Positions 1,685-20,998 of a DNA stretch of 50,240 nt are shown here, piece after piece. Numbering within the stretch: the first letter of the stretch is position 1; every line of letters starts with the position of its first letter. Both the position numbers and the translations under genes were made by a program. The notes beneath the pieces were generated by a model. That model was not told the DNA's origin, searched no databases, and saw only the letters and a program-made list of their open reading frames with translations. Location of the stretch: contig JAPSJC010000010.1 of the NCBI GenBank assembly GCA_031178355.1, positions 1 to 50,240 on the forward strand. Reading direction: 5' to 3'. The DNA comes from Ureibacillus sp. Lineage in GTDB: Bacteria; Bacillota; Bacilli; Bacillales_A; Planococcaceae.

Positions 1685-4471
1685 TTAATCAATTGTATAC
1701 ATATTTCCGCCTATTTCTTTTGAACGATACAAACATTGGTCCGCTTTTTTAAATAATTCCTCAGTTGAATAAGAATAACTAGAATAGATAGTAATCCCGA
1801 TACTTGCGGTGAGTTGAATTTCATGGCCTTGCTTGTAGATAGGTTCACTCATTTTATTCAATAATTGTTCCGCTATACTTGTTACTTCTTCAACACTATT
1901 CATCTCAGGAAGGACAACTGTAAATTCATCTCCCCCAATTCTCGAAATCGTATCCTTATTTCGAAGTGATAATTTTAATCGATTTGCGAACTCTTTAATG
2001 ACTTCATCCCCAATATTATGGCCATATGTATCATTAATACTTTTAAATTTGTCGCAATCAACAATCATAAGAGCTGAAATTTTACTTGTTTTATCGGTCG
2101 TTAACATTGCTTGGTCTAGCTGCTTATAGAAAAGACGACGGTTTGGTAAGTTCGTTAAATAATCATAAAAAGCCATTTTTGTTAACTTGGATTCTTTTTG
2201 CTTCAATTCCGTAATGTCCGTACTAATTAACATGATTTTTTCTACATCTTCGTTTTCATTCAATATAGGAGTAATATGAGTGTTTAACCAAACTGCAAAA
2301 CCGTTCCTATGGATATAGCGGATTTCAACCTGAACCGTTTTCTTAGTAAAAATACATTGCTCTAACGAAGACTCGAATAATAAGATATCTTCAGTATGTA
2401 TGTTACTTGTTATACATTTCCCAATTTCATTGCAAACTGGGATACCTAGTATTTCTTCTATAGATGGTGAGCAATAAGTAACTTTCCCATTAGGAGCTAA
2501 TATCTTTATGAGACTATTCGTATTCTCGGCAATAATTCGGAATCGTTGTTCACTTTCTTTTAATGCTTTATCTGCCCTTCTCTTTTGTGTAACATCTCTT
2601 AACATCACTATTGCATATTGTTGGCCTTGTTCTTGGAATGAAGCGGTTGTAGTTTCTGCATAAATTGTTTCCCCATCAAGATTTATGAACCGTTGAATAA
2701 CAGGTTCTGATGCATCTATTTGGGTTGCGAGTTTTACTTTATTCAGAACAAATTCTTTTTCACTTGGAAATACAAAATTAACAATCGGCAGACCTAGCAC
2801 TAAAGAAGAATTTTTGGCTTTTGCTAAATTAAGAAGAGCTTTATTAGCATAGGTAATTATTTCACCATTATGGATTAACAATGGATCTGGTGATGAATCA
2901 AGAACTTTTCGATATTTCGATTCACTTTCTGCTAGTTCTTGTAATATTTGTTTCTCTTTTGTTATATCTTTATAAATACCAATTACAAATATGTTCCCAT
3001 CGTCCACCTTACGATAGGTAGCAAGCACATCTATTATTGTCCCGTCCTTACGCATACGCTTTGTTTCAAATTGTAGAAATTTCTTTTCATCTTTTAATAT
3101 ACGAAGAACTTCTTGTAAGTGATTTTTATGTTGAGTTAAATAAAAATCTGTTGCTGAAAGAGTATCTTGTTCGTTGTCTAAAAACATTTTCTTATACGTA
3201 GAGTTTACTTTTATAATTTCACCGTTATGATTAATCATCATCATGGCATCGGTTGCATACTTCCAAGCTAATTTTAACTCTTGATTTTCCTGATTAATTT
3301 GTAAGTCTTTTTGCTTTGCATCCGTTATATCTCTAGCTACGCTTGCAATTCCAGTAATCTCACCTAAGTGATCATAAATTGGAGATAACGTTACACTTAA
3401 GTCTATAAGATTTCCATTGGCTTTCTGTCTAACGACGTGAACGTCTTTTATGCTACGACCATCAAAAGCTGATTGATATAATTCGTATGTTTCTGCTGCT
3501 AACCAGTCAGGTATAGTAGGATTTAATGTGTTAAGAATATCTTCTCTATCGTATCCAAACGTTTTGACAAAAGAATCATTTACATATATGATTCTCCCCT
3601 CTAAATTTGTCGTGTAAATGGCATCCGCATTATGATCTATCAAAGATCTAAGTTGACTCTCAGACTTGCTAACTTTCTCGTAGTCTTTCATTTCTGCTGA
3701 AATATCTTTCATTATTCCATACACACCGCTTACTTTTCCTTGAATTGTTAGTGGTATAAATTTGAGTTGAATATACACTTTGTATCCATTTTTATGGTAT
3801 AAATGTGTTTTAAATTGAACTGGATTTTTCTCAAGTACAAATTGTAACTTATGACTTAAAAGCTCTTTTTCACTGTTTTGGAATAACTTTGTAATTTTTA
3901 GTCCGACAATTTCAAATTGTGTATAGCCTAATAGACGTTTGCAAGCCTTATTGGATTCTAAAATAAATCCTTCAGAGTCAATTGTCAAAACGACATCTTC
4001 ATCATTATGAATTAGTGAATATAAACGTTCTTCATTATTTTCAATGGATTCTTTATTGTGATTTAATTCCATAATTTTTTTGTTATATTCTGTTACATCT
4101 CGTACAACCGAAACAACAAATAATTGTTCTTTATAAGTAAAAGGTGTTAAAACAGATTCGTTAATATATCGTTGATCGTCAATAATTACTTCATCATTAA
4201 ATACAACGGTTTTCTTATGGTTAATACATTTACGATAATGTCGTGTTAAAAAATCCGCTTTCTCTTTTGGTAGTACATCATGAAATGTATTTCCAACCAG
4301 TTCTTTTCCGTAATCTAAATGCCCTCTACCAGCTTGATTTGCAAAGTAATAGTAAAATTCTTCGTTTCGTACCTCCATTATATAAAAAATATCCTGTACT
4401 GTATTAAACGCACTTTTTAATATATTTCCGAACTGAGAGATATCTTCAATTGTTTGAATATCTTTGTTCAT
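1685..4471 (-). CDS. Multi-PAS sensor diguanylate cyclase
   Basis: Predicted cytoplasmic protein of 928 residues that makes c-di-GMP from two GTP. By eye it has six consecutive PAS/PAC modules (about 15-135, 150-270, 275-390, 405-520, 525-645 and 650-770), then a GGDEF domain (about 770-928). The active-site motif is an intact RIGGDEF, and RNKD lies five residues before it, which matches the RxxD inhibitory site, so product inhibition is expected. There is no membrane segment or EAL domain. An in-frame ATG four codons upstream (4483) has no ribosome site; the ATG at 4471 has ATGGAG 6 nt before it and was chosen. The gene is monocistronic, with its own terminator, and lies next to an EAL protein with the opposite activity. 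The ligands of the PAS domains cannot be read from sequence. Confidence 0.9.
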   Translation of the reverse strand: MNKDIQTIEDISQFGNILKSAFNTVQDIFYIMEVRNEEFYYYFANQAGRGHLDYGKELVGNTFHDVLPKEKADFLTRHYRKCINHKKTVVFNDEVIIDDQRYINESVLTPFTYKEQLFVVSVVRDVTEYNKKIMELNHNKESIENNEERLYSLIHNDEDVVLTIDSEGFILESNKACKRLLGYTQFEIVGLKITKLFQNSEKELLSHKLQFVLEKNPVQFKTHLYHKNGYKVYIQLKFIPLTIQGKVSGVYGIMKDISAEMKDYEKVSKSESQLRSLIDHNADAIYTTNLEGRIIYVNDSFVKTFGYDREDILNTLNPTIPDWLAAETYELYQSAFDGRSIKDVHVVRQKANGNLIDLSVTLSPIYDHLGEITGIASVARDITDAKQKDLQINQENQELKLAWKYATDAMMMINHNGEIIKVNSTYKKMFLDNEQDTLSATDFYLTQHKNHLQEVLRILKDEKKFLQFETKRMRKDGTIIDVLATYRKVDDGNIFVIGIYKDITKEKQILQELAESESKYRKVLDSSPDPLLIHNGEIITYANKALLNLAKAKNSSLVLGLPIVNFVFPSEKEFVLNKVKLATQIDASEPVIQRFINLDGETIYAETTTASFQEQGQQYAIVMLRDVTQKRRADKALKESEQRFRIIAENTNSLIKILAPNGKVTYCSPSIEEILGIPVCNEIGKCITSNIHTEDILLFESSLEQCIFTKKTVQVEIRYIHRNGFAVWLNTHITPILNENEDVEKIMLISTDITELKQKESKLTKMAFYDYLTNLPNRRLFYKQLDQAMLTTDKTSKISALMIVDCDKFKSINDTYGHNIGDEVIKEFANRLKLSLRNKDTISRIGGDEFTVVLPEMNSVEEVTSIAEQLLNKMSEPIYKQGHEIQLTASIGITIYSSYSYSTEELFKKADQCLYRSKEIGGNMYTID

Positions 4472-4810
4472 ATATAACTCCATTCTAATTAGAAAGGTAC
4501 TAAATTAATAATTTTTTAATAAATTTACAAAAAATAAACATACTTTAAATATTTATTTTAATAGCATTATCTTTATATTTCCATAGAAAAAAAATAGAAA
4601 TCTCATATTTGAGAGTTTTTATTTGCGACTAATTTATTCGAGTAAATTAGTTTATTAATAACTTAATAAAGTTTCAAACATAATGTGTATATGAAATATA
4701 ATTGGAGTATTTAACTCGCCAAAGGATTTGTTATCGATAGACAATCCATTTAGCTGTTATCTTTGCAGGGGTGTTGCTGGTATAGGATTATTAACGATTA
4801 AATCAGTAAA
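4472..4810. other. AT-rich intergenic region with an inverted repeat and a possible decayed coding fragment
   Basis: There is no intact gene here. A 9-bp perfect inverted repeat (4628-4636 and 4643-4651, 6-nt spacer) could be an operator for the cyclase gene. On the plus strand, 4701-4816 reads as an open stretch without a start codon, containing GVAGIGLLTIKSVKK. A second frame over 4748-4783 reads as a hydrophobic LAVIFAGVLLV. The pattern could be a frameshifted remnant of a membrane protein, but it is too short to be sure. Confidence 0.3.
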
Positions 4811-4833
4811 GAAGTGCTCTAAGCGAGCACTTC
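4807..4833 (-). terminator. Terminator overlapping the stop codon of the hydrolase gene
   Basis: Perfect 9-bp stem GAAGTGCTC/GAGCACTTC (4825-4833 with 4811-4819) and a 5-nt loop. The TAG stop codon (4819-4821) lies at the loop edge, so the last codons form one arm. The T tract after it is short. Confidence 0.7.
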
Positions 4834-5709
4834 TTCTTCATTTGCAAGAAATTCTGTCGTAACTTCGAACCCTCTCATAAAGTCAGGAGACCCTGGGAAA
4901 CTTTGCATAAAACCGTGAATGTTACCATCAAACCGCACTAGTTTTACATTTGCACCAGCAGTTTTCATTTTATCCGCGTAGGATTCCCCTTCATCACTAA
5001 ATGGGTCATATTCAGCTGAATAAATAAGTGTATTTGGCATTTTTGCTAAGATAGAGTTTTCAATTGATAATGGTGAATTGAGATTAGATTGTATAAGTCC
5101 ATTGAGGTTTTTTAAATCTATACCGTACTTCCCGTTATACATTTTTCTTGAGAGGAAATCACTATCTTCAATTTTATTATTAAAGTCAGTTATTGGATAA
5201 AAAAGAATTTGTTTATTAATTTTGAAGTCATTTGTTTTGATGGATTCTACAGTTAATAATGTAGCGATGGTCCCACCTATACTTCCACCGCATATTGAAA
5301 TGTTTATATCTGAACTATTCCACTTTTCAGCTTGTTGGACAATCGACTTAGTTGCTTTATAACACATATCAAATGTATTTAAAAAATTATTCAAATCAGG
5401 TTGATAATCAATAGCAATGATTTTATATCCAGAAAATGATGAAATCATACGACAAGGTACATCGGACGCCTCTAAATTTCCATTCATAAATCTTCCTTCA
5501 TGGAAAAATACTAATAATGAATAATGTTCTTGTAAATTAGGTGTATAAATTCGAATGGGTAAGGAATATTCGTCAAATTTTAAAACTTGATCTTCTATTT
5601 TATGAATGGATGGTCGTCTTTCATTTGGAGGATTTTCTTGGCTGATTCCATCTGTTCTATCCTTTGGATGTTCTTCAAAATACTTCAAAATATATGAATG
5701 AATCGGCAA
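4819..5709 (-). CDS. Alpha/beta hydrolase, HSL-like esterase/lipase family
   Basis: Predicted soluble 296-residue esterase. The nucleophile elbow is GGSIGG, the acid is in AEYDPFSDE and the histidine is in the C-terminal HGF, so the Ser-Asp-His triad of hormone-sensitive-lipase-type hydrolases is complete. The oxyanion-hole motif, normally HGGG, reads HEGR, which is unusual and may change substrate range or weaken activity. The reading frame extends to a GTG at 5748, but that codon lies inside the terminator hairpin of the upstream gene. The TTG at 5709 is preceded by AAAGGAG with a 7-nt gap and was chosen. The natural substrate is unknown. Confidence 0.8.
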   Translation of the reverse strand: MPIHSYILKYFEEHPKDRTDGISQENPPNERRPSIHKIEDQVLKFDEYSLPIRIYTPNLQEHYSLLVFFHEGRFMNGNLEASDVPCRMISSFSGYKIIAIDYQPDLNNFLNTFDMCYKATKSIVQQAEKWNSSDINISICGGSIGGTIATLLTVESIKTNDFKINKQILFYPITDFNNKIEDSDFLSRKMYNGKYGIDLKNLNGLIQSNLNSPLSIENSILAKMPNTLIYSAEYDPFSDEGESYADKMKTAGANVKLVRFDGNIHGFMQSFPGSPDFMRGFEVTTEFLANEEEVLA

Positions 5710-5736
5710 TATAATTCTCCTTTCTTTTTTTGATTT

Positions 5737-5770
5737 AAAAAACTGCACCTCAAATTTATTAGAGGTGCAG
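5737..5770 (-). terminator. Terminator of the 61-residue gene
   Basis: Stem CTGCACCTC/GAGGTGCAG (5762-5770 with 5743-5751), loop of 10 nt, then a T6 run on the minus strand: a textbook intrinsic terminator. It covers an apparent GTG start of the next gene, which argues against that start. Confidence 0.88.
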
Positions 5771-5813
5771 TCGGAATATTGAAAACATTTTCTTTTAGGC
5801 TAAACGATTATTT

Positions 5814-5999
5814 TTAGTGATTTAAATTGTTTTTTATTTCTTCCTTATTGGTATCACTATAAATTGACGTACCTTTACCGCCCGTTTTTGCTAGAAGTTC
5901 ATATACTTCATTAAAAGAAAGACCTGATTGGGCGTTTAGTTTTTTCACCTCATCAATGTTCGTTCCTGCAACTGTAAATTTATTCTCATGTTGTTCCAC
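5814..5999 (-). CDS. Small protein resembling gamma-type small acid-soluble spore proteins
   Basis: A 61-residue hydrophilic protein with a GTG start and a strong GGAGG ribosome site 7 nt upstream, followed by its own terminator, so it is almost certainly expressed. Its halves contain AGTNIDEVKKLNAQSG and YSDTNKEEIKNNL. Their spacing and composition recall the repeated GT-xxx-VK-xxNxQS and SETN-xxx-VKxxN blocks of gamma-type SASP, the amino-acid reserve proteins of the spore core. The match is by eye and partial. It could equally be an unrelated conserved small protein. If it is a SASP, forespore (sigma-G) expression is expected; I did not recognise a sigma-G promoter. Confidence 0.6.
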   Translation of the reverse strand: MEQHENKFTVAGTNIDEVKKLNAQSGLSFNEVYELLAKTGGKGTSIYSDTNKEEIKNNLNH

Positions 6000-6113
6000 T
6001 TGAAGACCTCCAAATGAATTTGATATTATTTTGTCACAAACCGAGTGAATTATTAATGGTACATGTATTGAGGATTAACAATAAATACCAAAAATTTTAG
6101 TTGTTCACAATAA

Positions 6114-6144
6114 TAAAAAACACCAATTAATAATAACTTGGTGT
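6114..6144 (-). terminator. Terminator overlapping the 3' end of the CapA-like gene
   Basis: Stem ACACCAA/TTGGTGT (6138-6144 with 6120-6126) followed by T6 on the minus strand. The stop codon TAA lies in the loop and the upstream arm is coding. Confidence 0.8.
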
Positions 6145-7356
6145 AATGGATACTTGATTGTTTTTCATTGAAGAGATGCTTTCAACATATTGCATCTCTG
6201 GTACAAATTGTGACATATGAACCTTAATTTCATCATAGATCGTTTGGTAATTATTTAGGACGTTATTGTCTAATTGATACATTGGGATAATATTGTAATT
6301 TCTCCAGTTTGTAAAATTTACGTATGTTGGAAGAAGTGTTGGATTTGAAATTTCAATACTAATTGTTTGTTTCCCTTGATGATCGTGAGTAATTGTTTTT
6401 GTCACACTTAATTGCATAATTGCTCCAATTTGACGATACAATTCATCCTGCGCGGAAATAAAGTTGCCAAGTGAGTGGATAACAAATGTTTTATTACCAT
6501 TTACTCCTGTATACCATTTCGCGGGTTGTAATACATGTGGATGATGTCCAATAACAATACCAACCCCATTATCTGAAGCAAGTTGGGCAATATGTTCTTG
6601 GTATTCATTAAACATACGAGCATACTCATTTCCGTAATGAAGATTTAATATCACCACATCCGATATACTTTTTGCCTTGTTAATATCCTCGATTAGTTTT
6701 TCTTCATTAATATAATTAACTAAATACTCTTTTCCTTCTGGTGTTACTAAGCCATTCGTACCATAGGTATAACCTAAAAAAGAAAAAGTAATGTTGTTCA
6801 CTGTCATTGTTTTAACGATTTCTGCCTCTTCTTGGCTTGTTGCAGCTCCAACATAGGTAATCCCTAGCTTATTCCAATAGTTGGTTGCATTGATAATCGC
6901 TTTTTCACCACGATCTAAAGTATGGTTATTGGCCATCGTAACGACATCTACTCCAACTTCTTTCAAGACATCCCCAACTTCATATGGACTATTAAATTGA
7001 GGGTAACTGGATAAACCTATATCTTGTCCACCAATGATACTTTCTGAATTAGCTATCGTTATGTCCGCACTCTGCAGAAATGGTTTCACTTTTTCAAACA
7101 TTTTCGAAAAATTATATTGACCATTTCCAATTTGGGCATCTTCATAAACTGAATTATGAATTAATATATCGCCAATTGCAGCCACAGTAGCTGTAAATGT
7201 TTCAGGTTCCTTTGGAATAAGGATCTCTGATTCTTTAGTATACTTATTTTCATAACTATTAGATGTAGGTTCTGGAATAACTTCTTCTTGACTATCACTT
7301 GTGTTACATGATGTTAAAAATAAGAAAAATACAACTAAAATAACTTGCTTAGTAAT
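6127..7356 (-). CDS. CapA/PgsA-family metallophosphatase-like lipoprotein, apparent ATT start
   Basis: The protein carries a CapA-type fold: AAIGDILIHNSVY at the start, ANSESIIGG, MANNHTLDRG, LHYGNEY and IGHHPHVLQP, which supply the metal-binding Asp, Asn and His residues of calcineurin-like CapA proteins (linked to poly-gamma-glutamate in some bacilli). A GTG at 7185 would remove all secretion signals. The same frame runs upstream through a lipoprotein signal, QVILVVFFLFLTSC, with a lipobox cysteine. The only plausible start for that form is ATT at 7356: AAAGGAG (7366-7372) lies 9 nt before it, with an extended -10 (TGTTATAAT) at 7400-7408. No ATG, GTG or TTG occurs in frame between the ribosome site and the signal peptide. 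The full form has 409 residues, lipid-anchored outside the cell. A sequencing error or a mutated ATG is the alternative. No cap operon genes adjoin it. Confidence 0.78.
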   Translation of the reverse strand: MTKQVILVVFFLFLTSCNTSDSQEEVIPEPTSNSYENKYTKESEILIPKEPETFTATVAAIGDILIHNSVYEDAQIGNGQYNFSKMFEKVKPFLQSADITIANSESIIGGQDIGLSSYPQFNSPYEVGDVLKEVGVDVVTMANNHTLDRGEKAIINATNYWNKLGITYVGAATSQEEAEIVKTMTVNNITFSFLGYTYGTNGLVTPEGKEYLVNYINEEKLIEDINKAKSISDVVILNLHYGNEYARMFNEYQEHIAQLASDNGVGIVIGHHPHVLQPAKWYTGVNGNKTFVIHSLGNFISAQDELYRQIGAIMQLSVTKTITHDHQGKQTISIEISNPTLLPTYVNFTNWRNYNIIPMYQLDNNVLNNYQTIYDEIKVHMSQFVPEMQYVESISSMKNNQVSITPSYY

Positions 7357-15109: not shown

Positions 15110-15273
15110 AAAAAAACCCCTCATTCCTGTAGAGAATGAGAGGTTACGTATACATAATCGCGCTCTCTTATCTCTCAAGACAGAACTTGTCTTGCCGGAA
15201 TTAGCACCTTTCTAACATTGTTAGAGGTTGCTGAAGCTTCACAGGGCCATTTCCCTCTGCTTCTCTTGATAAG
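15110..15273 (-). promoter_or_regulatory. S-box (SAM-I) riboswitch with intrinsic terminator controlling metA
   Basis: On the minus strand the aptamer runs from CTTATCAAGAGAAGC (from 15273) through GGGAAATGGCCC, CAGCAACC and AAGGTGCTAATTCC to GAGAGATAAG (to 15167), closing P1. It is followed by a terminator stem AACCTCTCATTC/GAATGAGGGGTT plus T7 (15110-15145). When SAM is bound the terminator should form and metA transcription stop. Confidence 0.96.
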
Positions 15274-15292
15274 ATTTGATGAAATTAAGGTA

Positions 15293-15335: not shown

Positions 15336-16112
15336 CTATTTTTCCTCTAATAGAATTTCCTTCCAACTCGAACCTTCATATTGTGTAATTTGGCTCTCAA
15401 TTTCTTTATCCCACTTATTTAATAAAGTATTCCATACTCTACATTGAAATACACTTACTTTTTCATTATAGATTATTATTTCAATACAGGGAATATCATT
15501 AATTTGTTCAAATTCGATTTGATCAATGTTAGAAATTTGCATTTCATCTTCATGATCGCTTTCTACATCTTCTTGTTCTTTTGTATCCATTAATCGAATC
15601 TCATTGATTATTACTTCATGAGATATACTAGGTTGCTCTTCATTTTTGTAGTAACGGTATATAGGTTCAGGAAAATCTTCATATTCCAATACTTCATCCA
15701 AGTCACCAGATAAAAAACTTTCATGTATAGAACTATACAGCATGTGTAACGTAGTCACTTCTTGATCTTCTTCATATACTCCGCTTTCTAACTGTTTCTT
15801 ACCCTTTTCTGTTATTTGGTAAACTTCTTCATGACGTTCAATAAGTTGCATTCTCTCCATTTTAGATAATAAATCTTGAACAAAGAGTTGTTCTACGAGT
15901 AGAATTTCGCTTATTTGGAGTGGACTTTTAAATCGAGCCTTTTGTATAGAAATTAAAAGCATTTTCATCAAGATATCCATTTTCCTACGTAAAACGGGCT
16001 TATAAGAAACTTGAACAGTATGAACAGGTAAACACCAAAAACTTGACTGGACACACTTTTCGTTAGGATTTAATTGTGAATTGAGTGTTTCCAGTAATGA
16101 TTGTAGTTTCAT
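15336..16112 (-). CDS. Winged-helix-containing protein paired with the SF1 helicase, unknown function
   Basis: A 258-residue protein, probably cytoplasmic. Residues about 40-115 look like a winged helix: a helical KMDILMKMLLISIQ segment, LQISEILLVEQLFVQDLLSKM as helix-turn-helix, then ERHEEVYQITEKGKKQL as the wing. A very acidic linker follows (about 160-205). The C-terminal 60 residues alternate beta strands and end in WDKEIESQITQYEGSSW; no domain is recognised. The start has TAGGAG 5 nt upstream. The gene begins 22 bp after the helicase stop, so the two are surely cotranscribed. No terminator follows; the next one downstream is that of the metA riboswitch. A DNA- or helicase-binding partner role is inferred, not shown. 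Confidence 0.7.
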   Translation of the reverse strand: MKLQSLLETLNSQLNPNEKCVQSSFWCLPVHTVQVSYKPVLRRKMDILMKMLLISIQKARFKSPLQISEILLVEQLFVQDLLSKMERMQLIERHEEVYQITEKGKKQLESGVYEEDQEVTTLHMLYSSIHESFLSGDLDEVLEYEDFPEPIYRYYKNEEQPSISHEVIINEIRLMDTKEQEDVESDHEDEMQISNIDQIEFEQINDIPCIEIIIYNEKVSVFQCRVWNTLLNKWDKEIESQITQYEGSSWKEILLEEK

Positions 16113-16134
16113 AATAACTCCTAATCGCTTTTTA

Positions 16135-19100
16135 TTAGTTATTAATGTAATAACGGTATCCTTTTTGCTCTTTCACTGTTTCTAATAATTGTTGGTACAT
16201 CTCTTTTGTTTCCACTTTTTTAGGTCGTTTCGTAAACATATCTGTACTCCCAATTAAAATTAATAGTTCTCTTGCACGTGATAATGCAACATTTAAGCGT
16301 CTATAATCCTTTGCAAAACCGATATCACCGTGTTTGTTATCATTGTTGCGAACCATACTTACTAAGATGACGTCCATTTCCATCCCCTGGAATTTATCTA
16401 CAGATCCAGTTCTAATATGTAAATGTTCAAGATTTAATACATCTATTAAGCGATTTATCCGTTTCACTTGTTCAGCATAGAAACTAATTACACCAACAGA
16501 CTTATGTGTATCTTGTTCAAAGTCTCCTTCTAGCTTTGCATGGGCGATAGACTCGTTTAAATCAATTAGCATTTTTCGAATGACATTAAGCTCCGTTTCA
16601 TTAAATAAACTTGAGCCCTCTTTCATACGTTGTTCAAAATAAGGCGATTCGTTAGGGATATCAAACCATAATAAATGATCATTACGAGTAATAAATTTAC
16701 TTTCTAATTTATGATCTCGTAATGCATCTGAATCAGGTAAACCACATTTTAAAGAATCATTTTCATTTTGATAGAAGGGAGCGATGGTTTGCATAATTTT
16801 CTCATGCATTCTATATTGTATAGCCAACATCTGCTTGTTTGATCGAGGTAAATTTTTATATAATCTTTCAAATAATGATTCCTCTAATAATTTTTCAAGT
16901 TCTCGTTTTTGTTCAAAAGTATTACTTTCCTTTATCACTTCTTCTAATGTTTCCTCAAAAGTTTCATCCCCAATTAACGGTGGAAGTTGATGATGGTCTC
17001 CCACCAGGACGATTTTCTTACCCTTCAGCATCGGAAGTAATAGTTCTGGAGGTGTTGCTTTTGAAACTTCATCGATAATCACAACATCAAATATAGGATA
17101 GTTGTCCATAAATTCTTTATTTGCAGAGGCAACACAAGTTGTACCAATTACATTTGCATGTCTAACATACAATTTTCGAATTTCCTCTAAGTCATGTTCT
17201 GTAGACTGGTCTAATAAAGATTTCCACTCTTTTTGTAAATCTTGTGTAATCGGAAGCATCTCTATTTTTGTCGTTAATAACTCGATTTCGACTTGTAAAT
17301 CGTCCATTTTTTTTGTCGTTTTTTCTAATTCTGCTTCAGGATTTTGCTTTGTAATTTGTTCAACCTCAGTATATTTCTTTTCAAGTTGAATACCTGCAGA
17401 ATTTAACTTTTTTAATTCTTCAATCATGTCTGTTAGTATTTTTTGACCATTTGACAGCTCAGCACTTACCTGTTCTTCTTCAGATTGTTTTGCAGTTAGC
17501 TTTGATTGTAGTTCTGTAAGTTTTTCTTTATCACTAATCAGTTTCTCTATCCCTATTTTCACATCAGCAAGTGTTGATTCAAGCTCTTCAACAGATAATT
17601 CACTTTCAGCTGTAACAGAGAGTTTTGATCTTTCACTCATTGTTTGTTGATAGAGGTTAGTAATTTGAAGTTCTTTATCTTTTAGAGATTGAATGATTGT
17701 TTTATTACTGCCTTCTTGATTCGAAAGTTGGTCAATAACTTCTTCTTTTATTTTTTTAAAAACAACCATTGATTCTTCGATAAGCGCATTATATTTTTCT
17801 GTAACTTGATTAATGTAGAGTTTTCTTAAGTATAGACCTTGTATAGAACGAGTCCCATTTTCTTTATTAATTTTCTTTTGTGCAAAAGCATAGCTTAACT
17901 TTGATAAAAACTCGTTTATTTCTTGTAATGAATAGTGATGATTTGGTGGAATATTATCAATTTGAACAATAATTCCTAATGTTTGTTTTGCATATTCTAT
18001 GGCTTTGTTTAATCGGTTGGTAATATCTTTTAAAAATTGGAAACTTTGAATTTGAGTTTGAATCTTCTCAAGATCCGAGAATAATTGATTGATGACAAAT
18101 CCTCTTCGGATATTACGGCTATCGATAAAAGTTTCAATATCGTACACCTTTTTAATTGCGTTGACTTCATCGATAGTGTTATTTAAATTCGAAGTAGTGG
18201 AGTTATACTTTCCTAACTGATCATGTATTTCAGATAATTGTAATTCATATTGACGAAGCTGCTTCGTTAATTTTGAATATTGGATTGTTTGTAGTAATAA
18301 CTCAACTTGGTCATGTTTTCTTTGTATATTCGTCAGAATTTCATCAATAGAACCTATTTCATTAATTACTTGTTCCAATTCCTCGATTCTTGATGAAATC
18401 TTTTTTTTCGATTCTGTTAGTTTTTCTAGCGTTTGTTCTGTTTTTTCCCGTTCTTTTTTTAGTGGAATTATTTTCTTTTTCAATTCAGAAATATCTTCTG
18501 TTATGGTTATAAGTTCTTTTTTCGCCTGTTGTTTCTTTAATACAGCTTCTTGAAGTATTAATTCTTTCTCTTTTAGATTGTCAATTTGTTCATAGCAACT
18601 CGTTATTTCATCTTGTAATTGTTGTTCTTTACTTTGATGTTGATTAATTTCGCTTGTAACAGCTTCTAATGTTTGTGATTTCCAATAGTCCGCTACATTC
18701 TCTTCAATAAATTTCTTACCTTCTTCTTCAATACTTTCTGTACGACCATATCGAAGAATCCGAATATCTTTGTTTGATAATAATCGACCTAACGCATTGT
18801 CAACAGCTAAGTTTGATTGAGATGCGATTAAAGTCTTTAATCCTGCTTTTGAATTTTGATAGCAGATTTCAGAAATAACAGTTGTTTTACCTGTACCAGG
18901 AGGACCTTGAATGACATAAAGATCTTCCGCCTTTAGGGCTCCATGAACTGCTTCACGTTGATATTCATTTAAGTTATTGTGAAATTCTATTTCAATGTCT
19001 TTTTTACTCTCAATAATTTTCGGCTTGTCTTCAAAGAGGATATTTTCTAAGTTCGCATTCGCCGATAAACCGTCTTTTAATCTTTCAAATCCTTTTAACA

Positions 19101-19899
19101 AACGGTTTAATTGTGATTTTGTTGAGGCATTGCTAAATGTGATATATTCAGAAGTAAAGTCAACTTCGTTCTTTTTTGCTAGTTTCGAAACAAAAGGACT
19201 TAACTGAATATCAATCTGTCGATTACCACGATTTACTTTTGTAACTTCCCCAATCTCTTTTCTAAACCCTTTAATATATGCACTTAAACCTTTTATTTGC
19301 TTCCATTGTTTGTCGTCAATACCCTGACATCGTAGAGTAACAGCTGAATAATCGGACTGAAATTGTACAGAATCAAATGTTGCATCAATATCTTCTATAT
19401 CAGCATTTTTATTTAAAACTTTTAAATAACCTTCCCAGCTTGTGATTCGTTTATTGACGTAGTCAAATCGTTCCTGAGCTACTGGTAAATCAGCTAGTAA
19501 TTGAATAAATTCTTTCGGATATGTATGTCCACTTATACGAGATGCAACAAAGTGAATACGAATAGGTTTTCTGCGATTTGTTTCAACGGGTGTATTTCCA
19601 CCTCTTGTTCGAAAACTTTTTGCAACAAGTCCATTTTTAAGGTCAAATGCGCAATCCATAATGACTACTCGACCACCAAATTTTTTTGAAAGTATATTGT
19701 TACGTTTATTATCAAAATATATAGATAGTGATATTGATGTTTGGTCAATTGATTGTTTCTCTATATAAACTAGGTATGATTGTTGTAATTTGAAAAAGGC
19801 ATGTTCATCTTGAAAATGTTCGTTAATAGCAGTACGTGCGGTATTTGTTAAGACAATAAAACATTTTACTGTATCTATTTCTGTTAGTTTTTGTACCAT
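16135..19899 (-). CDS. UPF1/DNA2-like SF1 helicase with a long internal coiled coil
   Basis: A 1254-residue predicted cytoplasmic helicase. An N-terminal region of about 310 residues has no motif that I recognise. The helicase core then shows the Q-motif region LNEYQREAVHGAL, Walker A GPPGTGKTT (about 332-340), motif Ia LIASQSNLAVDNAL, Walker B IIDEVSKA (about 940), GDHHQLPP, QYRMHEKI, GVISFYAEQV, SVDKFQGME and NVALSRARELL. Between motif Ia and Walker B lie roughly 500 residues of Lys/Glu/Leu/Gln-rich heptad-like coiled coil, an SMC-like insertion. The family unwinds DNA or RNA by ATP hydrolysis; which one is unclear. The ATG at 19899 has AAAGGAGG 7 nt upstream; an in-frame TTG at 19929 lacks one. 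It is the first gene of a two-gene unit with the winged-helix protein. A repair or defence role is possible; no other defence gene adjoins. Confidence 0.85.
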   Translation of the reverse strand: MVQKLTEIDTVKCFIVLTNTARTAINEHFQDEHAFFKLQQSYLVYIEKQSIDQTSISLSIYFDNKRNNILSKKFGGRVVIMDCAFDLKNGLVAKSFRTRGGNTPVETNRRKPIRIHFVASRISGHTYPKEFIQLLADLPVAQERFDYVNKRITSWEGYLKVLNKNADIEDIDATFDSVQFQSDYSAVTLRCQGIDDKQWKQIKGLSAYIKGFRKEIGEVTKVNRGNRQIDIQLSPFVSKLAKKNEVDFTSEYITFSNASTKSQLNRLLKGFERLKDGLSANANLENILFEDKPKIIESKKDIEIEFHNNLNEYQREAVHGALKAEDLYVIQGPPGTGKTTVISEICYQNSKAGLKTLIASQSNLAVDNALGRLLSNKDIRILRYGRTESIEEEGKKFIEENVADYWKSQTLEAVTSEINQHQSKEQQLQDEITSCYEQIDNLKEKELILQEAVLKKQQAKKELITITEDISELKKKIIPLKKEREKTEQTLEKLTESKKKISSRIEELEQVINEIGSIDEILTNIQRKHDQVELLLQTIQYSKLTKQLRQYELQLSEIHDQLGKYNSTTSNLNNTIDEVNAIKKVYDIETFIDSRNIRRGFVINQLFSDLEKIQTQIQSFQFLKDITNRLNKAIEYAKQTLGIIVQIDNIPPNHHYSLQEINEFLSKLSYAFAQKKINKENGTRSIQGLYLRKLYINQVTEKYNALIEESMVVFKKIKEEVIDQLSNQEGSNKTIIQSLKDKELQITNLYQQTMSERSKLSVTAESELSVEELESTLADVKIGIEKLISDKEKLTELQSKLTAKQSEEEQVSAELSNGQKILTDMIEELKKLNSAGIQLEKKYTEVEQITKQNPEAELEKTTKKMDDLQVEIELLTTKIEMLPITQDLQKEWKSLLDQSTEHDLEEIRKLYVRHANVIGTTCVASANKEFMDNYPIFDVVIIDEVSKATPPELLLPMLKGKKIVLVGDHHQLPPLIGDETFEETLEEVIKESNTFEQKRELEKLLEESLFERLYKNLPRSNKQMLAIQYRMHEKIMQTIAPFYQNENDSLKCGLPDSDALRDHKLESKFITRNDHLLWFDIPNESPYFEQRMKEGSSLFNETELNVIRKMLIDLNESIAHAKLEGDFEQDTHKSVGVISFYAEQVKRINRLIDVLNLEHLHIRTGSVDKFQGMEMDVILVSMVRNNDNKHGDIGFAKDYRRLNVALSRARELLILIGSTDMFTKRPKKVETKEMYQQLLETVKEQKGYRYYINN

Positions 19900-19980
19900 G
19901 AACATACCTCCTTTCGTTAGTTTACACAAACGTCATTATAACAAGTTTCGACAGATGTTTGTAGTGAAGAAAATAAATTA

Positions 19981-20010
19981 AAATAAAAAGGACTAGCACT
20001 TGCGCTAGTC
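19981..20010 (-). terminator. Terminator of the thioesterase gene
   Basis: Stem GACTAGC/GCTAGTC (19991-19997 and 20004-20010), 6-nt loop, then CTTTTTATTTT on the minus strand. Confidence 0.85.
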
Positions 20011-20439: not shown

Positions 20440-20620
20440 CCTATTCACCTCTTATTTCATTATACATGAATAAAAATTAGCTGCAAAATGATTGATTTCT
20501 TTTAAAAGTTAAATAATAAGAGATAGTAATTACTTCATATTAGTTACCACATCATATATAATGATGAATGGCCTGAATTGGCAGACAGTCCAAATAAAAG
20601 CATAACAGGATGTGACTTTA

Positions 20621-20998
20621 ATGATAAAGATTGAATTACCAAAACCAGATGTCATTATTTATCAAAGAAAACAAGAACTTAAAGAAGGTGAGGCACCAAT
20701 TACACCTATTAATGGATTTATTGATTTTCATAAAATTACTCGAGATAAAGGCGGATTCTTCTTATTTTACAATAGAGAAAATGAAGTTTTATTTGTTGGG
20801 AAAGCACGTAAACTACGTCAAAGAATAAAAAAACATTTTGAAGATAACGTTTCACCAATTAAAAATCATCGAGATGAAGTTTATAAAATTGAAGTGTATG
20901 AAGTAGAAGATCAAATGGAACGTGAAATTTACGAGACATATGCTATTAATTTCCTTCGTGCAAAATATAATGTAGAGAAAGTTTTTTACCAAGACTAA
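20621..20998 (+). CDS. GIY-YIG nuclease-superfamily protein, YurQ-like
   Basis: A 125-residue protein with a UvrC N-domain-like GIY-YIG core: GGFFLFYNRENEVLFVGKA stands for the GIY...YIG pair (here GFF and FVG), followed by the conserved Arg in KLRQRIKKHF, and Glu in REIYETYAINFLRAKYN. It resembles the short Bacillus UvrC-related protein YurQ. The altered GIY/YIG tyrosines leave nuclease activity uncertain. The ATG at 20621 lies 10 nt after AGGA; a GTG at 20612 is too close to it. A TATAAT-like -10 occurs near 20557. A bidirectional terminator follows. Confidence 0.8.
   Translation: MIKIELPKPDVIIYQRKQELKEGEAPITPINGFIDFHKITRDKGGFFLFYNRENEVLFVGKARKLRQRIKKHFEDNVSPIKNHRDEVYKIEVYEVEDQMEREIYETYAINFLRAKYNVEKVFYQD

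Follow-up and report, generated by a model that had tools for sequence, protein, structure and literature searches.

In this study, we analysed a two-gene locus on a 50,240-nucleotide stretch of Ureibacillus sp. DNA (assembly GCA_031178355.1, contig JAPSJC010000010.1, positions 1 to 50,240; hereafter the window), which encodes a large UPF1-like helicase with a long coiled-coil insertion and a small winged-helix protein, here called its partner (Table 1). Both open reading frames (ORFs) lie on the minus strand at the positions given in an earlier note on this DNA, which had been made from the sequence alone. The longest helicase ORF opens at TTG 19929. We place the start at ATG 19899, which upholds the 1254 residues of the earlier note, because AAAGGAGG (19914-19907) stands 7 nucleotides upstream of this codon and because one relative, L003, carries a stop codon a short way ahead of the equivalent start. 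The 22-nucleotide gap was also recovered, the helicase stop lying at 16137-16135 and the partner ATG at 16112, with AGGAG at 16122-16118 ahead of it. Judged from its sequence signals, the pair probably forms its own two-gene transcript, since a terminator-like hairpin (20010-19991) separates it from the thioesterase gene upstream and a TATAAT is found at 19940-19935. The terminator consensus scan returned 6 such sites in the region against 2.8 expected, and a promoter scan returned 33 sites against 37.9 expected by chance, without TATAAT 19940-19935 among them.

Table 1. Features of the helicase-partner locus in window coordinates (helicase domains in the 1264-residue numbering)
Feature	Position	Strand	Support
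UPF1/IGHMBP2-like SF1B helicase (1254 aa, start ATG 19899) with giant coiled coil in 1C	16135..19899	-	ORF, AAAGGAGG, Pfam, PADLOC
N-terminal alpha/beta domain, residues 21-147	19489..19869	-	AlphaFold2 model residues 1-127
Subdomain 1B (residues 151-285), helical stalk with beta barrel	19075..19479	-	AlphaFold2 model residues 131-265
RecA1, first part, residues 319-396; Walker A GPPGTGKT 342-349, SQSNLAVDNA	18742..18975	-	Pfam AAA_11, alignment
Coiled-coil insertion at the 1C position, residues 397-907	17209..18741	-	AlphaFold2 helices; in 78/79 relatives
RecA1, second part, and RecA2, residues 908-1233, motifs II-VI	16231..17208	-	Pfam AAA_12 1015-1229, alignment
Winged-helix partner, 258 aa	15336..16112	-	ORF, AGGAG, AlphaFold2, charge
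27-residue beta strand before the winged helix-turn-helix, residues 18-44	15981..16061	-	Model; within the MkoB-aligning stretch (hhalign columns 1-131)
MarR-type winged helix-turn-helix of partner, residues 47-110	15783..15974	-	VIA-align
C-terminal beta/alpha half of partner, residues 112-257	15342..15779	-	Model
Terminator-like hairpin between upstream thioesterase gene and helicase	19991..20010	-	Consensus scan
TATAAT, candidate -10 element of a promoter for the pair	19935..19940	-	Read by eye; no good -35

Architecture of the helicase and its partner

Pfam detected AAA_11 (1.6e-41) and AAA_12 (3.7e-46) in the helicase and otherwise only weaker, overlapping P-loop families. Its sequence relatives with solved structures were IGHMBP2, DNA2, UPF1, Sen1, senataxin, aquarius and ZNFX1. 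Four motifs were invariant in an alignment of 21 relatives (GPPGTGKT 342-349, DEVSKA 953-958, GDHHQLPP 977-984 and QYRMH 1038-1042), as were W165, E166, G167, Y168 and L169 of the WEGYL motif in subdomain 1B. VDKFQGMEMD (1177-1186) varied at 1179, 1183 and 1186, and RRLNVALSRA (1210-1219) at 1216. The motor motifs are thus intact, as had been read before, with slight variability in motifs V and VI.

An AlphaFold2 model of residues 21-1220 as a single chain places the N-terminal alpha/beta domain first, then the 1B stalk and barrel, RecA1, two helical arms with a tip, and the remaining motor. Its top Foldseek matches were senataxin (E 2.2e-13) and IGHMBP2 (E 7.6e-13), and VIA-align superposed 455 residues on IGHMBP2 (4b3f) with a Z of 14.8 and a root-mean-square deviation (rmsd) of 7.5; the VIA alignments to IGHMBP2 and UPF1 start at model residue 130-133. 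Two hallmarks of a UPF1-like SF1B helicase were found, namely SF1 motifs with DE and QxR elements (alignment, Pfam) and a RecA1 that bears a 1B of stalk and barrel as well as a 1C prong (model, VIA). The NCBIfam IGHMBP2 family scored 275.1 bits, below its cut-off of 348.9.

The insertion forms an antiparallel coiled coil of ~510 residues, with an outward arm (397-591), a helical tip (about 595-683) and a return arm (693-907); the helices span 377-505, 508-571, 575-663, 673-748, 760-841 and 844-887 in model numbering. Calculated from the helical rise, the arm would be about 29 nm long. From Walker A to DEVSKA, 78 of 79 helicases have 599-642 residues, and the remaining one (L175) is a fragment. 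This spacing is 163-312 residues in five MkoA-type comparators and about 576-789 in three cyanobacterial-plasmid relatives. Because the insertion is located where subdomain 1C belongs, we regard it as the enlargement of a known part. The long coiled coil proposed in the earlier note is real, and its supposed rarity holds in part: it is unusual next to MkoA-type proteins, but it is an enlarged 1C prong that recurs on three cyanobacterial plasmids. The contig of L175 is labelled as a Planctomycetes bacterium and carries a fragment of the pair with planococcal similarity, which likely reflects contamination or mislabelling.

UPF1, IGHMBP2, Sen1 and senataxin share with the window helicase the motor motifs, the 1B stalk and barrel, and a 1C at the same place. 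However, the 1C of Sen1 comprises 120 residues compared with ~510 here, and the window helicase adds an N-terminal domain and a dedicated winged helix-turn-helix (wHTH) partner. In Sen1 this 1C, or prong, is a 120-residue insertion, and without it the enzyme neither unwinds nor terminates transcription in vitro (PMC5452015). HelD likewise combines a helicase-like motor with a long helical insertion in the first motor domain; its arms enter the RNA polymerase channels, its domains are UvrD-like and it bears a 152-residue bumper (PMC7749165). It appears to differ from the window helicase, which is UPF1-like with an alpha/beta N-terminal domain, in its UvrD-like motor and Gre-like N-terminal arm. 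The fold matches listed for the window helicase included UPF1, IGHMBP2, Dna2 and SETX, and the HelD family was not among its NCBIfam matches in whole-protein searches. The ABC-type ATPase heads of SMC and Rad50 are absent from the window helicase, which has SF1 motifs and AAA_11/AAA_12, and its SMC matches are confined to the coiled coil.

The AlphaFold2 model of the partner is confident (mean predicted local distance difference test score, pLDDT, 93.1; predicted template modelling score, pTM, 0.80). It shows a short helix, a 27-residue strand, the wHTH, further strands, a helix, a second 27-residue strand and a C-terminal helix. The wHTH superposed on 2x4h_A with a Z of 11.9 and an rmsd of 1.5 over 67 residues (VIA-align), tied with many MarR-type rows. 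Foldseek with the whole partner returned nothing at E 0.001 from the PDB or from viral models. The whole-protein fold of MarR-family repressors, dimerising helices with a wHTH, was not found, as residues 43-112 alone match and are flanked by long beta strands. The C-terminal half had sequence matches only inside its own family, and hhalign against the MkoB set gave it a probability of 0.1. The earlier note could not assign this protein. Part of it can now be placed: long beta strands enclose a MarR-type wHTH, and the N-terminal sequence appears MkoB-like, but the C-terminal half matches nothing outside the family.

The partner is acidic (net charge -24, isoelectric point (pI) 4.6), and so are all of its 77 aligned relatives (pI 4.2-5.9, median 4.7; median net charge -20), in which the recognition helix is neutral (median 0). 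For comparison, the pI values of six MarR-type proteins encoded in this genome lie between 4.8 and 9.7. The acidity and the neutral recognition helix would favour a protein-binding adaptor over a DNA-binding repressor, which seems the less likely role.

Distribution, linkage and constraint of the pair

Strong matches to both genes were present in 179 of 200 genomes of the window's own family (Planococcaceae-like), and 21 genomes lacked the partner. At E 0.001 the helicase was detected in 183 genomes, strongly in 179 (at most 5.5e-154) and weakly in four partner-less ones (E 0.001, 2.3e-4, 3.3e-18 and 2.1e-41). The partner-less genomes thus comprise 17 without a helicase match and these four; 20 of them were listed and G100 was identified by elimination. 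Joint absence followed lineage, affecting every sampled genome of three genera (eight of g4, two of g9 and eight of g10) and one genome each of g11, g12 and g16. In a survey of 398 genomes of the class, 38 gave strong partner matches, 36 of them in the family and two outside it (G289, G511), with one further weak match; the same 38 genomes carry a helicase of the window type. Among 388 genomes of the phylum, matches were found only in the window's own genome and in G001.

A scan of named genomes identified partner relatives at 169 loci, of which the best 80 were kept for the locus analyses. The genera among these 80 include Ureibacillus, Lysinibacillus, Psychrobacillus, Sporosarcina, Planococcus, Rummeliibacillus and Caryophanon, together with some Bacillaceae such as Domibacillus, Halalkalibacter and Salipaludibacillus. 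The partner had no match on plasmids at 1e-5, and the helicase matched 4 phage and 289 plasmid records, none reaching 80% coverage. Our literature search found no published description of the pair, subscription papers being outside its reach; the accessible part of a paper on Caryophanaceae signatures names an 'AAA family ATPase' without specifying which one.

All 21 regions compared, drawn from 15 genera, have the two genes side by side in the same orientation (gaps of -20 to 33 nucleotides), and the genes also adjoin at 79 of the 80 named loci, where 76 of the 79 gaps fell between -41 and +29 nucleotides. The outlying gaps were -131, 257 and 272, and the choice of start codon is probably part of the cause. 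At the exception, L173, both genes persist, with the helicase on another contig of the same genome. This genome (partner L173, L221; helicase L220) was the only one seen with a split pair; it is labelled Arthrobacter beigongshangensis, has planococcal-type genes and coincides with G140, which was placed in the window's family, so it is probably misnamed.

The genomic surroundings are varied. metA and a menI-like gene flank the pair in 9 of 21 regions, and the 79 loci have 43 neighbour clusters upstream and 42 downstream. PADLOC at 1e-10 was applied to 116 neighbouring proteins from 11 loci (the 18 chosen loci had 205 such ORFs) and gave eight families: mad3 (10 members), mad8 (4), a subtilase (2), AriA (two families, 2 and 1), DpdF (1) and RT-Protease_XI (two families, 1 and 1). 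Most of them we read as generic models of the ATPase, regulator, subtilase or RecQ type. A mobile defence island was ruled out for the family by the near-universal joint presence and the varied, mostly metabolic or transport neighbours.

Across 2850 pairs from 76 loci (three others, fragmented or with uncertain ORFs, were omitted), the pairwise identities of helicase and partner were correlated (Pearson 0.905), as common descent alone would also produce. The ratio of nonsynonymous to synonymous substitution rates (dN/dS) ranged from 0.021 to 0.080 for the C-terminal motor, from 0.060 to 0.315 for the partner and from 0.088 to 0.372 for the coiled coil. These values come from the 14 closest of 45 pairs at 80-99% identity; the pairs share members, and one has an identical N-terminal part. 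Helicase and partner are under purifying selection in these close pairs.

The fixed partner that the earlier note took as a sign of a dedicated complex fits the joint presence and the adjacency observed here. The neighbourhood survey it had proposed showed a conserved pair with a near-universal, single-locus, non-island distribution. It had also named, as an outcome that would speak against its view, a universal and syntenic housekeeping module of known function. Near-universal presence in the family agrees with that outcome, but the pair is not syntenic, and no named function was found.

Two further observations concern the surroundings in the window. A SAM riboswitch (Rfam RF00162, 100.4 bits; 15165-15275, minus strand) lies downstream of the pair ahead of metA and indicates ordinary regulation of methionine synthesis. 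On the plus strand, a gene at 20612-20998 that diverges from the thioesterase gene encodes a small protein with a GIY-YIG domain (3.6e-10); it is present in 4 of the 21 aligned regions.

Kinship with Mokosh and with effector-bearing relatives

PADLOC identified Mokosh MkoA as the best match of the helicase (2.9e-115) and MkoB as the only hint for the partner (2.3e-6, residues 27-120). As in type I Mokosh, an AAA_11/AAA_12 (COG1112-type RNA-helicase) gene directly precedes the gene of a wHTH protein, whose N-terminal region appears MkoB-like. In contrast, type I carries a kinase on MkoA and a PLD on MkoB, and a Pfam scan at E 0.1 revealed no kinase family in either window protein and no PLD in the partner. 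In the Bacilli loci L212 and L213, MkoA has an N-terminal Pkinase domain (Pfam), and the next genes at Bacilli Mokosh loci encode 461-588 residues. The insertion is also much longer in the window helicase than in MkoA, and the pair is core-like, whereas MkoA matches above 600 bits occurred in only 3 of 398 class genomes. The pair does not correspond to type II either, in which helicase and PLD form one protein (Pfam). Plain Mokosh membership was rejected because kinase and PLD are missing. One of the three genomes with such a strong MkoA match, G033, holds both Mokosh MkoA and a window-type pair, so the two are separate genes. Of four Bacilli MkoB-type genes, L213 and L215 have a weak PLD and L212 and L214 have none by Pfam; the latter two (4864-6621 and 4235-6001, respectively, both on the minus strand) stand beside MkoA, which suggests that this N-terminal region can be joined to other effector domains.

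Profile comparison (hhalign) matched the partner with four MkoB-type proteins (77.8%, E 1.9e-5). Against the N-terminal regions of ten MkoB-type proteins, it reached 95.0% (E 3.7e-8) over 126 columns (partner columns 1-131); the best of 30 unrelated control clusters reached 5.2%. The MkoB search covered 386 phylum genomes, 10 of them matching at 1e-8; L229 and L230 were used, and L232 and L240 were left out of the MkoB set. The match is not confined to the wHTH but also takes in the strand and the helix ahead of it. Sequence by itself is not conclusive here, and operon position is the stronger argument for kinship of the partner with MkoB. The N-terminal domain of the helicase matched MkoA weakly (17.6%, E 0.0014).

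Additionally, three cyanobacterial plasmids (L242, L243 and L244) encode a long-insertion helicase and an overlapping downstream MkoB-like gene, which ends in a PLD in two cases (E 3.1e-6 and 1.8e-6, narrowly above the cut-off of Pfam) and in DarT in one (9.2e-16). This set, which is not a named system, shares with the window pair the long insertion, the tree group and, apparently, the MkoB-like N-terminal part encoded downstream. It differs by the effector domain on the downstream gene and by its mobile setting, one member lying inside BREX. The helicase of L242 neighbours restriction and toxin-antitoxin genes, and a related Aliarcobacter helicase adjoins a Qat gene. In L244 (Nostoc sp. C052 plasmid pC052_C, 5563-12311), the helicase, the DarT-ending gene and an ADP-ribosylglycohydrolase gene lie between pglX and pglZ of the BREX cluster, possibly as a helicase-aimed DarT toxin-antitoxin unit. 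Viral contigs were scanned with this Nostoc-plasmid helicase only, the window's own pair not being used as query there, and nothing was found. A tree of 26 motor sequences joined the planococcal (100/100) and the three cyanobacterial (100/99) helicases with that of Aliarcobacter in one group (100/99), apart from kinase-bearing MkoA. The kinship of the window-family helicases with Mokosh-like helicases is well supported.

A putative remodelling role and its alternatives

We tentatively regard the pair as an effector-less member of a Mokosh-like helicase-adaptor family, which may now serve as a core chromosomal 5'-3' nucleoprotein remodeller of one bacterial family. Nucleoprotein remodelling in normal life appears the most likely function, since effectors are missing, joint inheritance is near-universal and both genes are constrained. 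In such a complex, the prong of a UPF1/IGHMBP2-type SF1B motor would have grown into a ~30 nm coiled-coil arm with a helical tip, and the acidic partner would dock on the helicase as an adaptor and not as a DNA-binding repressor. An adaptor with an effector, the nuclease or ADP-ribosyltransferase of the relatives, would aim that effector, and one without would regulate or couple the motor. The complex might move 5'-3' along single-stranded RNA or DNA, its arm reaching large bound complexes and dislodging or reorganising them, as a routine machine of nucleoprotein quality control. As to how this state arose, it is conceivable, if rather doubtful, that a defence platform with interchangeable killing domains (PLD, DarT) was domesticated for nucleoprotein remodelling, or that the pair is the bare ancestral machine behind such defence systems.

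Several results weigh against this picture. The helicase model is mediocre (mean pLDDT 75.0, pTM 0.45), with poor stretches within the motor. The partner-MkoB match stands only moderately above the generic wHTH background: the partner matched six MarR proteins at 46.4% (E 2e-4, 57 columns, the wHTH alone), the MkoB set matched MarR at 89.8% (E 1.8e-6), and the partner against the three cyanobacterial adaptors alone gave 37.1% (E 3.5e-4), with the C-terminal half unmatched. Furthermore, the tree leaves the branching order of planococcal, cyanobacterial and Aliarcobacter helicases unsettled, with several long rows, and the Aliarcobacter helicase has no long insertion, so the ancestry of the insertion is not decided by the tree. 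The data show how the genes are built, their domains and the insertion, the linkage, distribution and constraint of the pair, and, by family search, that kinase and PLD are missing. The physical complex, its 5'-3' polarity, the substrate, the contacts of the arm and the role are what we infer from these data.

The phage defence that the earlier note had considered is not shown as a present role: the closest families are those of Mokosh defence, but kinase and nuclease are missing and the distribution is unlike that of mobile defence. The near-universal presence at a single locus, outside islands, agrees with the housekeeping role that it had equally allowed for. A fixed chromosomal anti-phage module nevertheless deserves weighing. 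Its helicase would detect the nucleic acid or transcripts of a phage and either work by itself or call in an effector from another locus, and the family would have retained it as a core defence. MkoA is the best named family, and the cyanobacterial and Aliarcobacter relatives lie beside restriction, toxin-antitoxin or Qat genes or in BREX. In addition, a defence module can be fixed in a clade, as one study called Mokosh in 93.8% of the genomes of the B. cereus group, with type II prevailing and PADLOC as the sole caller in most cases (PMC11811056). Against this stand the absent kinase and PLD, the single-locus presence under strong constraint, the unmatched partner on plasmids with only partial phage and plasmid coverage of the helicase, and the few defence families among the neighbours. 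We consider such a module unlikely. The B. cereus group calls may represent another core helicase gene labelled as defence.

Two other functions were weighed against the same architecture. A recycler of transcription complexes would follow nascent RNA to stalled RNA polymerase and enter or pry the polymerase with its arm. The position of the insertion at the Sen1 prong, which in vitro unwinding and termination require (PMC5452015), the Sen1 and senataxin structures among the fold matches and the precedent of HelD (PMC7749165) point that way. However, HelD is UvrD-like with a 152-residue bumper, unlike the UPF1-like motor here, no polymerase-binding feature was identified in the pair, and the arm seems far longer than channel entry requires, which makes this function improbable. 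A helper in DNA end processing or recombination, its coiled coil bridging DNA as in SMC/Rad50-like proteins, would agree with the Dna2-like motor and the SMC/Rad50-like coiled coil among the fold matches. Yet a nuclease domain was not found, an ABC head is absent, the coiled-coil matches are unspecific and most loci have no repair genes as neighbours, and we regard this function as highly unlikely.

If the remodelling reading is true, the pair would represent a natural effector-free Mokosh-like helicase, in which the work of motor and adaptor could be studied without the toxic part, and the long prong would make testable what the 1C of UPF1-like helicases does to nucleoprotein complexes ahead of the motor. 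The pair also calls for caution, as profile searches can label core genes of this kind as defence genes. Furthermore, this planococcal family would offer a test of how immune and housekeeping helicases interconvert.

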